Part shown: piece after piece, positions 18,101 to 21,555 of the stretch
Layout of the letters: each line of letters opens with the position of its first letter
Position numbering within the stretch: position 1 is the stretch's first letter
Assembly: GCA_946481345.1 (NCBI GenBank)
Contig: CAMLMY010000006.1
Coordinates: 1-64,000 of the forward strand
Direction: 5' to 3'
DNA: 64,000 bases
From: an uncultured Gilliamella sp.
GTDB taxonomy: Bacteria; Pseudomonadota; Gammaproteobacteria; Enterobacterales; Orbaceae
Translations under genes and position numbers: made by a program
The notes under the pieces: generated by a model
Told to the model about the DNA's origin: nothing
Seen by the model: the letters and a program-made list of their open reading frames with translations, nothing else
Databases searched by the model: none

Positions 18101-18310
18101 ATTTCAGAAAACAATTTCAGAAAAACAATAACTATATGATATATATCAATTTAATTTATAATAATATCAATATATTAACTTTTCAAATTAAATAAATTGT
18201 TACCAACGTCACATTTCTTAAAAAATTTTGAAATAAATTTGTATAAATTTAGTATTATTCTAATAATATTTTTAAAACGGTATTTCATAATTATTAAAGG
18301 AAATAAATTT

Positions 18311-19822
18311 ATGGCTGACAATCAAAAGAAAATAACCACACTAACTCGATTTTCGTATGGTAGTGGTAATTTGATAGGAAGTGGGGCGCTAGCAATTAGT
18401 GCTGCTTGGTTACTATATTTTTATACAACATTCTGTGGTCTTTCTGCATTTCAAGCAACATTAATTTTTTCAATCGCTACTTATTTAGATGTCATTCTAA
18501 ATCCATTAATGGGATTTATTACTGATAATTTTAACCACACAAAACTTGGCCGTCGATTTGGCCGTCGCCGATTTTTCATTTTATTTGCTGTTCCATGTAT
18601 GATTATTTACCCATTACTTTGGGTTGATGGCATGAATTTTTGGTACTACTTAACTACCTATATTTTATTTGAATTCATCTATACCATGATTATGATTCCA
18701 TATAATACTTTACCGGTAGAGATGACCAAAAACTTTGATCAAAGAACTTACTTAGCCGGTTCTAAAGCAATGTTTGGTAAAGTTGCTAATTTCTTAGCTG
18801 CAGCAATTCCAGGGGTATTTTTCTATCTATTTGATGGTAAAGACTCCCCATTACCGTTCTTACTAACAGGTATTACTTATGCAACTATTATGGCTATTGC
18901 ATTAATCTTGCTTTACCTAAATAGTTGGGAGAAATCAATTGATGAAATTGAAGATGAAACAACTTCTGGTCTTTGGGAAAGCATTGTTAAATTATTCTCA
19001 GATGTGTTTTCAACCTTCCGTTTAAAAACATTTAGAAACCATTTAGGTATGTATCTATTTGGTTTTGGTGCTGAATGGCTATTCGCGGCAACATTTACCT
19101 ATTTTGTAGTATTTAACTTAGGCCAACCTAAAACTTTTGTTTCACAAATGAATAGTTTAAGTAGTATATGTCAGTTAATTTCAACGGCATTCTTTATGGC
19201 TTGGTGTGTAAAACGAGGATTCAAAAGACCATTTGTTATTGCAATACTAATCGTAATATCTTCAGTAATTGGTTATATCGGAGTCTATTATTTTAACATG
19301 CCTCATGTTACTTGGATTGTTATTGGTATTACAATTTGGTTTGGCTTAGGAACTGGTGGGGTTTATTACATTCCGTGGAGTGTATACACCTTCTTAGCTG
19401 ATATCGATGAAGTATTAACCGGAAGACGTCGTGAAGGTATCTATGCAGGTGCAATGACCATGGCTGGAAAACTAATGCGAGCGACCATTGTATTTATTCT
19501 AGGGATTGTATTGAAATACTCAGGTTTTGTCTCTGGTGTAAATACCGTTCAACCAGATAGTGCAGTGACTGCAATCAACTTAGTTCTTATCTTTGGTGTG
19601 TGTGGAATGGCATTATTAGGTATTTTCTTTACTTACCGAATGAAATTAGACAAATCTACTCATGCACTTATTATTCAAGAACTTGATAGATTAAAAACTG
19701 GTGGTAAAAAAGAAGATGCAACACCAGAAATAAGAAGCTTAGTTAAAGAACTAACTGGCTTTGATTATGATAACTGTTTTGGTAACAATAATGTTGGTTT
19801 TAAACAACATCATCCAAAATAA
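18311..19822 (+). CDS. togT: GPH-family cation:oligogalacturonide symporter, TogT-like
   Basis: A 12-helix inner-membrane carrier of the glycoside-pentoside-hexuronide family, 503 residues from the ATG at 18311 (AAAGGA ten bases upstream). An upstream in-frame extension is A/T-rich leader and is rejected. Family features include FSYGSGNLIGSGALA at the start, LNPLMGFITDN, RFGRRRFFILFAVPCM in the loop after helix 3, and YNTLPVEMT. Position beside ogl/kdgF and the shared KdgR/CRP-like sites point to import of pectin oligomers, as for Dickeya TogT. Another uronide or glycoside remains possible. Confidence 0.85.
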   Translation: MADNQKKITTLTRFSYGSGNLIGSGALAISAAWLLYFYTTFCGLSAFQATLIFSIATYLDVILNPLMGFITDNFNHTKLGRRFGRRRFFILFAVPCMIIYPLLWVDGMNFWYYLTTYILFEFIYTMIMIPYNTLPVEMTKNFDQRTYLAGSKAMFGKVANFLAAAIPGVFFYLFDGKDSPLPFLLTGITYATIMAIALILLYLNSWEKSIDEIEDETTSGLWESIVKLFSDVFSTFRLKTFRNHLGMYLFGFGAEWLFAATFTYFVVFNLGQPKTFVSQMNSLSSICQLISTAFFMAWCVKRGFKRPFVIAILIVISSVIGYIGVYYFNMPHVTWIVIGITIWFGLGTGGVYYIPWSVYTFLADIDEVLTGRRREGIYAGAMTMAGKLMRATIVFILGIVLKYSGFVSGVNTVQPDSAVTAINLVLIFGVCGMALLGIFFTYRMKLDKSTHALIIQELDRLKTGGKKEDATPEIRSLVKELTGFDYDNCFGNNNVGFKQHHPK

Positions 19823-19887: not shown

Positions 19888-20667
19888 TTAAATTAAACCA
19901 AATTTTTGCAGCGCTTTAGCAATACCATCATTATCATTATTATCGGTTATATACTCAGCTTTATCTTTCAAATCATCAACTGCATTAGCCATAGCAATTG
20001 GATGATCAACGGTTAAGAACATTTCTAAATCATTCATACCATCACCAAATGCATAAGTAGGTACATTATCAAAACCTTTGGTTTTTAATAATTCATTAAT
20101 GCCGTTACCTTTCGATCCACCATGGTTAAAGACATCAACACAATAATGAGTATTACGAATAAAAGTTAATTCAGGAAAAGCTTCTCGATAAGGCGATTCG
20201 CCTTGCTCACAAAGCAATAACAACATCTGAATCTGTTCTTTTAAATAAATTTGATCATCAACCGGAGGAATTTCTAGTTTTAAAGAACGATAAAACTGTT
20301 CGGTAGCTTGATTAATTTCACTGACTCTCATCTTATTATAATTATAAAAAGACAAAGGAATATTCATTTTTTCCCTTGAAAATTCATATAATCTAGTAAT
20401 AACATTTTTATCAATATTATTGGTAAATACGACTTCTTTTTCATAAATAACAGCTTGGCCATTCATTGCTATAATCGAATTTATGCCCGTCTCTTTCATC
20501 AATTTAGCGGCTTCCATAGGGGTTCGGCCTGTTGCTAGCATAGGTATAATATTATTTTGCTTTAATCTTTCAATTGCAGCATAAGAACTTGGCAACACTT
20601 CTATATTACTATCAAATAAAGTACCATCTAAATCGAAAAAAACGATAGCATCAGGTTTTTTAGTCAT
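19888..20667 (-). CDS. Cof-type HAD-IIB phosphatase
   Basis: Haloacid dehalogenase-like hydrolase acting on an unknown phosphorylated metabolite. Motif I is FFDLDGTLFDSN (nucleophile Asp near residue 12). Motif II is LATGRTP, the motif III Lys is in GGSKGNG, and motif IV is FGDGMNDLEMF. A C2-type cap lies between motifs II and III. The 259 residues are typical of Cof/YkrA proteins. It starts two bases after hda stops, so the two are probably cotranscribed, although no functional link is known. Substrates of such enzymes (sugar phosphates, flavin or nucleotide phosphates) cannot be told from sequence. Confidence 0.9.
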   Translation of the reverse strand: MTKKPDAIVFFDLDGTLFDSNIEVLPSSYAAIERLKQNNIIPMLATGRTPMEAAKLMKETGINSIIAMNGQAVIYEKEVVFTNNIDKNVITRLYEFSREKMNIPLSFYNYNKMRVSEINQATEQFYRSLKLEIPPVDDQIYLKEQIQMLLLLCEQGESPYREAFPELTFIRNTHYCVDVFNHGGSKGNGINELLKTKGFDNVPTYAFGDGMNDLEMFLTVDHPIAMANAVDDLKDKAEYITDNNDNDGIAKALQKFGLI

Positions 20668-20669
20668 TT

Positions 20670-21353
20670 TTACAAATCCAAAATATTTTTAATAAAAGGA
20701 ATAGTTAATTTGCGTTGTTGAGCTAATGTTGCAACCTCAAATTTTTCCATTAAAGAAAACAATGTTCGCATATCGCGATTAACACGTTTTAACAAAAACA
20801 AACCAACTTCAGTTGATAACTCAAAGCCACTTAATTGCGCTCTAAGTTGCAGAGCTTTTAGTTTATCTTCATCACTTAATTCTTTTAGTTGATAAACCTG
20901 TCCCCAAGTTAATCTTGAAGCTAAATCAGGCAAGATAAAAGGAATTTGTTTAGGCGGAGCACAAGCGGTAATTAAAAGTTTACTAACATTTTTTTCAGTT
21001 AAACGGTTAAATAAATCAAAAATTGCCTCTTCCCAATCTCGATGACCTGCTATGGCATCAATGTCATCCAAACAAACCAAATCATAATTATCTAAACCTT
21101 GTAAAATTTCAGGAACCAATAACACATGTTGCTTTAATGGAATATAACTAGCTAATTTATTTTGGCTTGAAGCATGTAATAGATGCGTACGACCAGCTGC
21201 GCTTGCTGACCATATATAAAAGACATTAAAACCTTCCCTATCAAGTAAGGTTTGCAAAGAATCAAACAATAGCTGATTATCACCCACATAGAAACTATCA
21301 AATGTTTCGTTATTAGGTAATATAAAAGGTAAAGGCAACTGTGAAAGAGTAAT
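20670..21353 (-). CDS. hda: DnaA inactivator Hda, with apparent AUU start codon
   Basis: AAA+ protein that, with the DNA-loaded beta clamp, stimulates DnaA-ATP hydrolysis to prevent over-initiation. The Walker A variant SAAGRTHLL, LVCLDDIDAIAG, LPDLASRLTWGQVY and the C-terminal QRKLTIPFIKNILDL are diagnostic. No ATG or GTG opens the frame. The first TTG (21338) would cut off the clamp-binding segment QLPLP, which matches E. coli QLSLPL. The only upstream codons after a stop are GGT CAT TTT ATT ACT CTT TCA CAG. ATT at 21351-21353 lies six bases after GAGGT, giving 227 residues. E. coli hda also uses a rare start, CUG. Confidence 0.93.
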   Translation of the reverse strand: MTLSQLPLPFILPNNETFDSFYVGDNQLLFDSLQTLLDREGFNVFYIWSASAAGRTHLLHASSQNKLASYIPLKQHVLLVPEILQGLDNYDLVCLDDIDAIAGHRDWEEAIFDLFNRLTEKNVSKLLITACAPPKQIPFILPDLASRLTWGQVYQLKELSDEDKLKALQLRAQLSGFELSTEVGLFLLKRVNRDMRTLFSLMEKFEVATLAQQRKLTIPFIKNILDL

Positions 21354-21555
21354 AAAATGACCTCACAATAAAAATACAATCATACTAAGTATAAATTTGC
21401 TTTCACAAAAATCAATTACTTTTATAGAGAACAAAATAAGTTAGCAAAAGCAGCTATTAAAAATCGATATACAAAAACTAGTTAACCTACAAAAAAACAA
21501 ATAATAACATAACTAAAATGCTATTTAGTTATAAACTTTAACTTATTATTATTCA

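Follow-up and report, generated by a model that had tools for sequence, protein, structure and literature searches.

The hda gene of Gilliamella very probably starts at AUU, in place of the CUG of Escherichia coli

In Escherichia coli, infC and pcnB are listed as the only two genes with an AUU start (PMC9410913), that of pcnB being attributed in the same source to Binns and Masters (2002), and IF3 is reported to discriminate against this codon (PMC5472188). Hda is described as having an N-terminal clamp-binding motif (PMC4776307). In Caulobacter, an excess of HdaA is reported to delay initiation and its depletion to cause over-initiation (PMC9945499), effects which suggest, from a distant relative, that Hda is wanted in small amounts. 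The E. coli hda gene itself is annotated from CTG in the one RefSeq record examined (CTG AAC ACA CCG GCA CAG), in line with the rare CUG start given in the original prediction for this locus. A JBC paper of 2008 is also said to describe the CUG start of E. coli hda.

The gene presented here appears to use a different rare codon. A literature search, covering titles and abstract openings and few of the subscription journals, returned no report of an AUU start of hda. As far as the comparison of genomes shows, hda of Orbaceae, with its conserved AUU start, is a real addition to the small class of AUU genes, taking the place of the E. coli CUG.

The hda locus and its first codons

The window (the whole stretch of 64,000 nucleotides of Gilliamella DNA that was analysed) has a G+C content of 0.3445 and bears hda on the minus strand, in a frame bounded by a TGA at 21365-21363 and a TAA at 20672-20670. 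Read from ATT, the coding sequence occupies 20670..21353 and encodes 227 codons plus the stop. Its identity is well established, with 296 bits against NF005982 (curated cut-off 268) and 248.3 bits against TIGR03420 (curated cut-off 194.8). The E. coli Hda structure PDB 5x06 aligned to residues 3-227 of the protein (E-value = 4.3e-74), which is also 100% identical, after rounding, to Hda of Gilliamella apis NO3. In the structural alignment QLPLP, at 21327..21341 on the minus strand, pairs with QLSLP of 5x06, the correspondence that had been predicted, and we take these letters to be the clamp-binding motif of Hda.

After the TGA the frame reads GGT CAT TTT ATT ACT CTT TCA CAG TTG CCT TTA CCT. 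Neither ATG nor GTG nor TTG occurs before QLPLP in the window, and ATT (21351..21353, minus strand) is the sole near-cognate codon between the upstream stop and the motif. It is preceded by the Shine-Dalgarno (SD) sequence GAGGT (21364-21360), from which it is separated by the six bases CATTTT. This reading agrees with the original prediction on the in-frame TGA at 21363-21365 followed by eight codons before the first TTG, on the lack of any ATG or GTG that could open the frame, and on the coordinates and spacing of GAGGT and ATT. The prediction that a start at this TTG (21336..21338, minus strand) would delete QLPLP holds in part. The Q, which is the conserved first residue of the motif in the alignment to QLSLP of PDB 5x06, would be lost, as would the start residue and the next three residues; however, the TTG is itself the codon of the first L, which would become M and leave M-PLP.

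Downstream of hda, a gene for a Cof-type HAD-IIB hydrolase (19888..20667, minus strand) opens with an ATG two bases after the hda stop and is probably its operon partner, with hda as the first of two genes. Further along, an ORF for a membrane protein at 18197-19822 was called from TTG; its start, judged by eye, is probably the ATG of MADNQKK further downstream. On the other side of hda, the gene at 21556-22575 matches NF041560, a putative type VI secretion system effector, with 114.2 bits (cut-off 90). Between them, TATACT at 21388..21393 (minus strand) is the probable -10 box; it is found in 32/32 close Gilliamella genomes, its place varying by one base. A possible -35 box, TTGATT, was located at 21410..21415 on the same strand by promoter scan and comparison, the scan being no better than on shuffled sequences (four promoters found, 5.1 expected). 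From the TATACT box a leader of some 28 bases would be expected, which would include the SD and leave little room for a riboswitch. The assembly from which the window comes (G000) has an estimated contamination of 4.62%; on its contigs C1 and C29, dnaA and full-length dnaN were each matched twice, and it may mix two related strains or species.

Conservation and history of the start codon

The hda gene was obtained from 43 of 44 Orbaceae genomes searched; the remaining one (G005, 81% complete) gave a DnaA-level match alone. The close set consists of 32 Gilliamella hda genes (L001-L032), with one genome per species. Two further genomes with the same genus label, L033 (ATT) and L034 (ATC), are reported separately and kept outside the counts per site. 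The start codon is ATT in 32/32 genes of the close set, and GAGG is present at -11..-8 in 32/32 as well. A sequencing error as the source of ATT, which an ATG in close relatives would have pointed to, is thereby ruled out, and the comparison of 5' ends that had been proposed for this gene found both the codon and its SD conserved.

Alternative start codons upstream of the motif are almost missing from the family. In 31/32 close Gilliamella no canonical codon lies in frame upstream, the exception being L015, whose upstream frame is open, with a TTG inside the SD and a GTG and an ATG at least 26 codons upstream of the motif Q. Among all Orbaceae, 40/43 genes have no in-frame ATG, GTG or TTG between the upstream stop and the Q. 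Beside L015, L035 has a TTG at -16 and at -26, and L112, from the Frischella-like genome G063, has an ATG six codons before the Q and two codons upstream of ATT; it reads GGAGTTATGGCAATT, and the spacing between SD and ATG is 2-3 bases. ATT with no option of ATG, GTG or TTG was also found in L033, in both genomes of genus g27 and in three of the four of genus g28, and all six genomes of these two genera share the spacing between ATT and the motif.

Substitution patterns in the close set place the N-terminus inside the protein. The pN/pS ratio of 1.36 over codons -8..-4 gives way to 0.07 over codons 2-4, 0.16 over codons 5-26 and 0.09 over codons 27-227, and QLPLP thus lies within the constrained protein. 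The low value of 0.23 at codons -3..-1 is due to the SD, whose GG never varies, and to the equally invariant TTT beside ATT; the middle codon of the three encodes H, Y, S or F. No synonymous change was seen at codons 2-3 among the 32 genomes. Since no ATG, GTG or TTG can supply the required N-terminus (in the window and in 40/43 Orbaceae) and ATT is conserved at proper spacing from the SD (32/32 close Gilliamella), both lines point to AUU, and we regard it as very likely, from the comparison of sequences, that hda of Gilliamella starts there.

Regarding the origin of this codon, we built a protein tree of 43 selected loci, on which the start-codon labels outside Gilliamella were set by eye. 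The ATT rows, together with the single ATC row (L034), form one clade (support 100/98) that is nested in CTG Orbaceae. Genus g29 reads CTG AAT after GAGG, while genus g2 reads CTG ATC, where either CTG or ATC may be the start. CTG also appears in the rows of families f19, f11 and f23, and in 13/13 rows fetched from family f19 the motif is preceded, at a distance of five codons, by CTG AAC or CTG AAT. The TTG rows of family f9 sit beside CTG rows in the tree, so that CTG, the start of E. coli hda, is the likely ancestral codon rather than a certain one. Most simply, CTG changed to ATT once, in the ancestor that Gilliamella shares with the Frischella-like genera, and ATT later gave way once to ATC.

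A single base change would turn CTG into ATG, GTG or TTG, and ATT into ATG. With a G+C content of 34% and such short routes, drift should frequently have arrived at canonical codons, and inside the ATT clade at most L112 has one. Because canonical codons are one change away and yet rarely reached, the best reading appears to be that weak initiation of hda has been kept by selection while the gene exchanged one non-canonical start for another. Selection for weak initiation as such had been suggested in the original prediction; the switch from CTG to ATT on the tree fits it, whereas the upstream ATG of L112 does not, and the suggestion stands as a probable interpretation. Taken as a whole, the explanation of an AUU start with an SD, weak initiation and low Hda, kept by selection, is in our view likely to be correct.

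Its strongest competitor accepts the AUU start and regards it as a historical accident, a non-canonical start having been inherited from an ancestor shared with E. coli and CTG having drifted to ATT with no selection involved. The apparently ancestral CTG would suit such a course, as would the unexceptional invariance of ATT at the codon level: 17/149 other codons with an invariant amino acid are also invariant as codons (0/8 for the Ile codons), and the invariance of ATT, taken by itself, argues modestly for selection. However, CTG becomes TTG by a single C-to-T change, in a window of 34% G+C, and ATT needs one change to become ATG, and still 40/43 Orbaceae genes lack a canonical start. The invariant TTT before ATT and the lack of synonymous change in codons 2-3 also speak against drift, which we consider unlikely, though it deserves more weight than any of the other rivals.

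RNA structure, coupling and downstream starts

A possible hairpin spans 21338..21369 on the minus strand. In the minimum-energy fold ATTGTGAGG pairs with codons 3-6, the arm that contains the SD (21361-21369) facing 21338-21346 and ATT lying in the loop. Such a structure could hide the SD and be the real control, for instance as a thermosensor, with the start codon playing a secondary part. In 16/21 distinct rows 8 or 9 of the 9 pairs are standard, as this would require, but the z-score of the fold is -1.18, the pairing is reduced to 6-7 of 9 in L009, L015, L031 and L033 and to 4 of 9 in L034, and one pair, in L009, is changed on both sides by eye. With hardly any compensatory change the hairpin at the hda start is unproven, its arms being the SD and conserved codons that are conserved for other reasons. 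Covariation gives no support to an SD hairpin as the control, a role that we consider improbable.

A leader mini-ORF was also considered. In the window ATG ATT GTA TTT TTA TTG TGA ends in the SD, and hda could be reached at AUU by re-initiation or coupling. The mini-ORF ending at this TGA occurs in 17/32 Gilliamella, the window among them, but 15/32 do not have it. The TGA keeps its place in 30/32 and is missing in 2/32, so it is hardly part of the mechanism. In addition, the ATG of the mini-ORF would stand at or upstream of the likely transcript start, at about -28. With 15 genomes devoid of the mini-ORF this route was rejected, and we consider re-initiation or coupling highly improbable.

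Finally, a start at the TTG (21338-21336) or further downstream, for example at the GTG of codon 23, giving a protein with no clamp Q, is scarcely credible and was rejected: both are normal start codons in frame, but the TTG (codon 6) is shared by 9/32 relatives, the other 23/32 having TTA, CTA or CTG, and the GTG by 8/32, inspection by eye shows no suitably spaced SD ahead of either codon in the window, the protein sequence is constrained over codons 2-26 (pN/pS 0.07-0.16), and the commoner TTG of codons 29 and 33 (28/32 and 24/32) would cut further into the conserved protein.

Start codons across the order, IF3 and comparison with known systems

The AUU start of hda was placed in a survey of the order that comprised 65 genera with readable loci; one of the contributing searches matched 95/100 genera, the best matches being used. 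For comparison, loci outside the order were drawn from 115 genomes, of which 112 had a match and the 30 best-scoring were used, and both samples lean to high-scoring Hda. Rows were dropped for duplicate genomes (L051-L076), for the same 5' end as L109 (L077) or the same place as L036 (L101), for distance (L078, 25% identical), for a motif that was not located (L145) and as a stray (L160). A simple SD rule proved too strict, since it classed 67/131 loci of the order and 27/30 outside it as canonical but with none preceded by an SD, and for this reason starts were judged by the presence or absence of codons alone.

By this measure, an ATG lies within 15 codons before the hda motif in 22/65 genera of the order versus 28/30 outside loci. 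Among 30 matched genomes of the order, hda has no ATG, GTG or TTG in 10, GTG or TTG only in 12 and ATG in 8, while dnaN has ATG in 30/30 of the same genomes. For infC, 26 of 28 loci could be located, and 26/26 of these have no ATG within 20 codons. The negative control dnaA failed: 17/20 readable loci have GTG or TTG and no ATG within 15 codons before W..CL (of the 30 genomes, three loci were cut at the locus end and seven were not located). Weak starts are thus not peculiar to hda, dnaA being mostly devoid of ATG too. The recF control was of little use, with 11/30 located by pattern and 10 of those having ATG. What sets hda apart in part of the order is that, like infC and pcnB, it goes beyond GTG and TTG. 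The 24 genomes of family f22 (genera g23 and g85) gave a single match each, at DnaA level (2e-37 to 3e-36), and these genomes may lack Hda or have a much diverged form of it.

The two known AUU genes were also sought in Gilliamella. Its infC has ATT after an SD in 4/4 loci read (L194, L196, L197 and L202), and pcnB, assigned by homology, has ATT after an SD in 5/5 (L243 of the assembly studied here, and L237, L242, L248 and L250). The pcnB gene of L243 reads AGGTGCACT ATT TTT, with an in-frame ATG 11 codons downstream. The infC gene was found in 8/8 other Orbaceae genomes searched and was not found in the assembly of the window, which is 75% complete. On the sequence comparison, hda looks like a third AUU gene beside infC and pcnB, and it is plausible that it, too, would be a target of IF3 discrimination.

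We propose that translation of Gilliamella hda begins at AUU (21353-21351), aided by its GAGGT Shine-Dalgarno sequence. IF3, by discriminating against AUU, would allow little Hda to be made per hda mRNA, and Hda would stay scarce relative to DnaA and to the clamp; when IF3 is short, more Hda would be made. The weak start would have been held by selection through the change from CTG to ATT. A wider version of this idea, which we put forward tentatively and regard as possible rather than probable, is that Gilliamella and the Frischella-like Orbaceae have a small AUU regulon made up of infC, pcnB and hda, in which the amount of IF3 per ribosome would set, along with its own synthesis, the Hda brake, and in which selection would have kept a weak, IF3-sensitive start through the replacement of CUG by AUU.

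Hda, which acts with the loaded clamp to stimulate the hydrolysis of DnaA-ATP (RIDA), is a brake on DNA replication, and the long retention of a rare AUU start in Gilliamella and its relatives, which live in the bee gut, would suggest that it is made in deliberately small amounts. The replacement of CUG by AUU in one gene amounts to a natural replacement experiment: if the strength of the start is what matters, one weak codon should be able to stand in for another and canonical codons should be avoided, as the tree shows within Orbaceae. Both the need for scarce Hda and a link through IF3 between translation and the control of replication could be tested by changes of a single codon. In addition, gene callers limited to ATG, GTG and TTG would truncate or misplace Hda in these genomes.

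Among the known systems, sigR of Streptomyces resembles hda as proposed here in that a non-canonical start sets the amount of a regulator; it belongs to another phylum, starts at GTC and is reported as IF3-repressed by experiment (PMC5472188). The E. coli hda gene is orthologous and likewise has a non-canonical start shortly after GAGGT. It differs in the codon, CUG instead of AUU, and in the distance from the start to the clamp Q, which is five codons in E. coli and four in Gilliamella, the N-terminus of the latter being one codon shorter. The neighborhood differs as well, the upstream neighbor in Gilliamella not being uraA and the HAD hydrolase gene lying downstream. Like Gilliamella hda, infC combines an AUU start with a strong SD, but it serves the autogenous feedback of IF3, while control of hda would act in trans; to our knowledge, no link of Hda to IF3 is known. 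A non-autogenous AUU gene is pcnB, of different function (polyadenylation), which in the assembly studied here has an SD and spacing similar to those of hda. Its ATT occurs both in Gilliamella and in E. coli-like rows; the codon of hda, in contrast, has changed.
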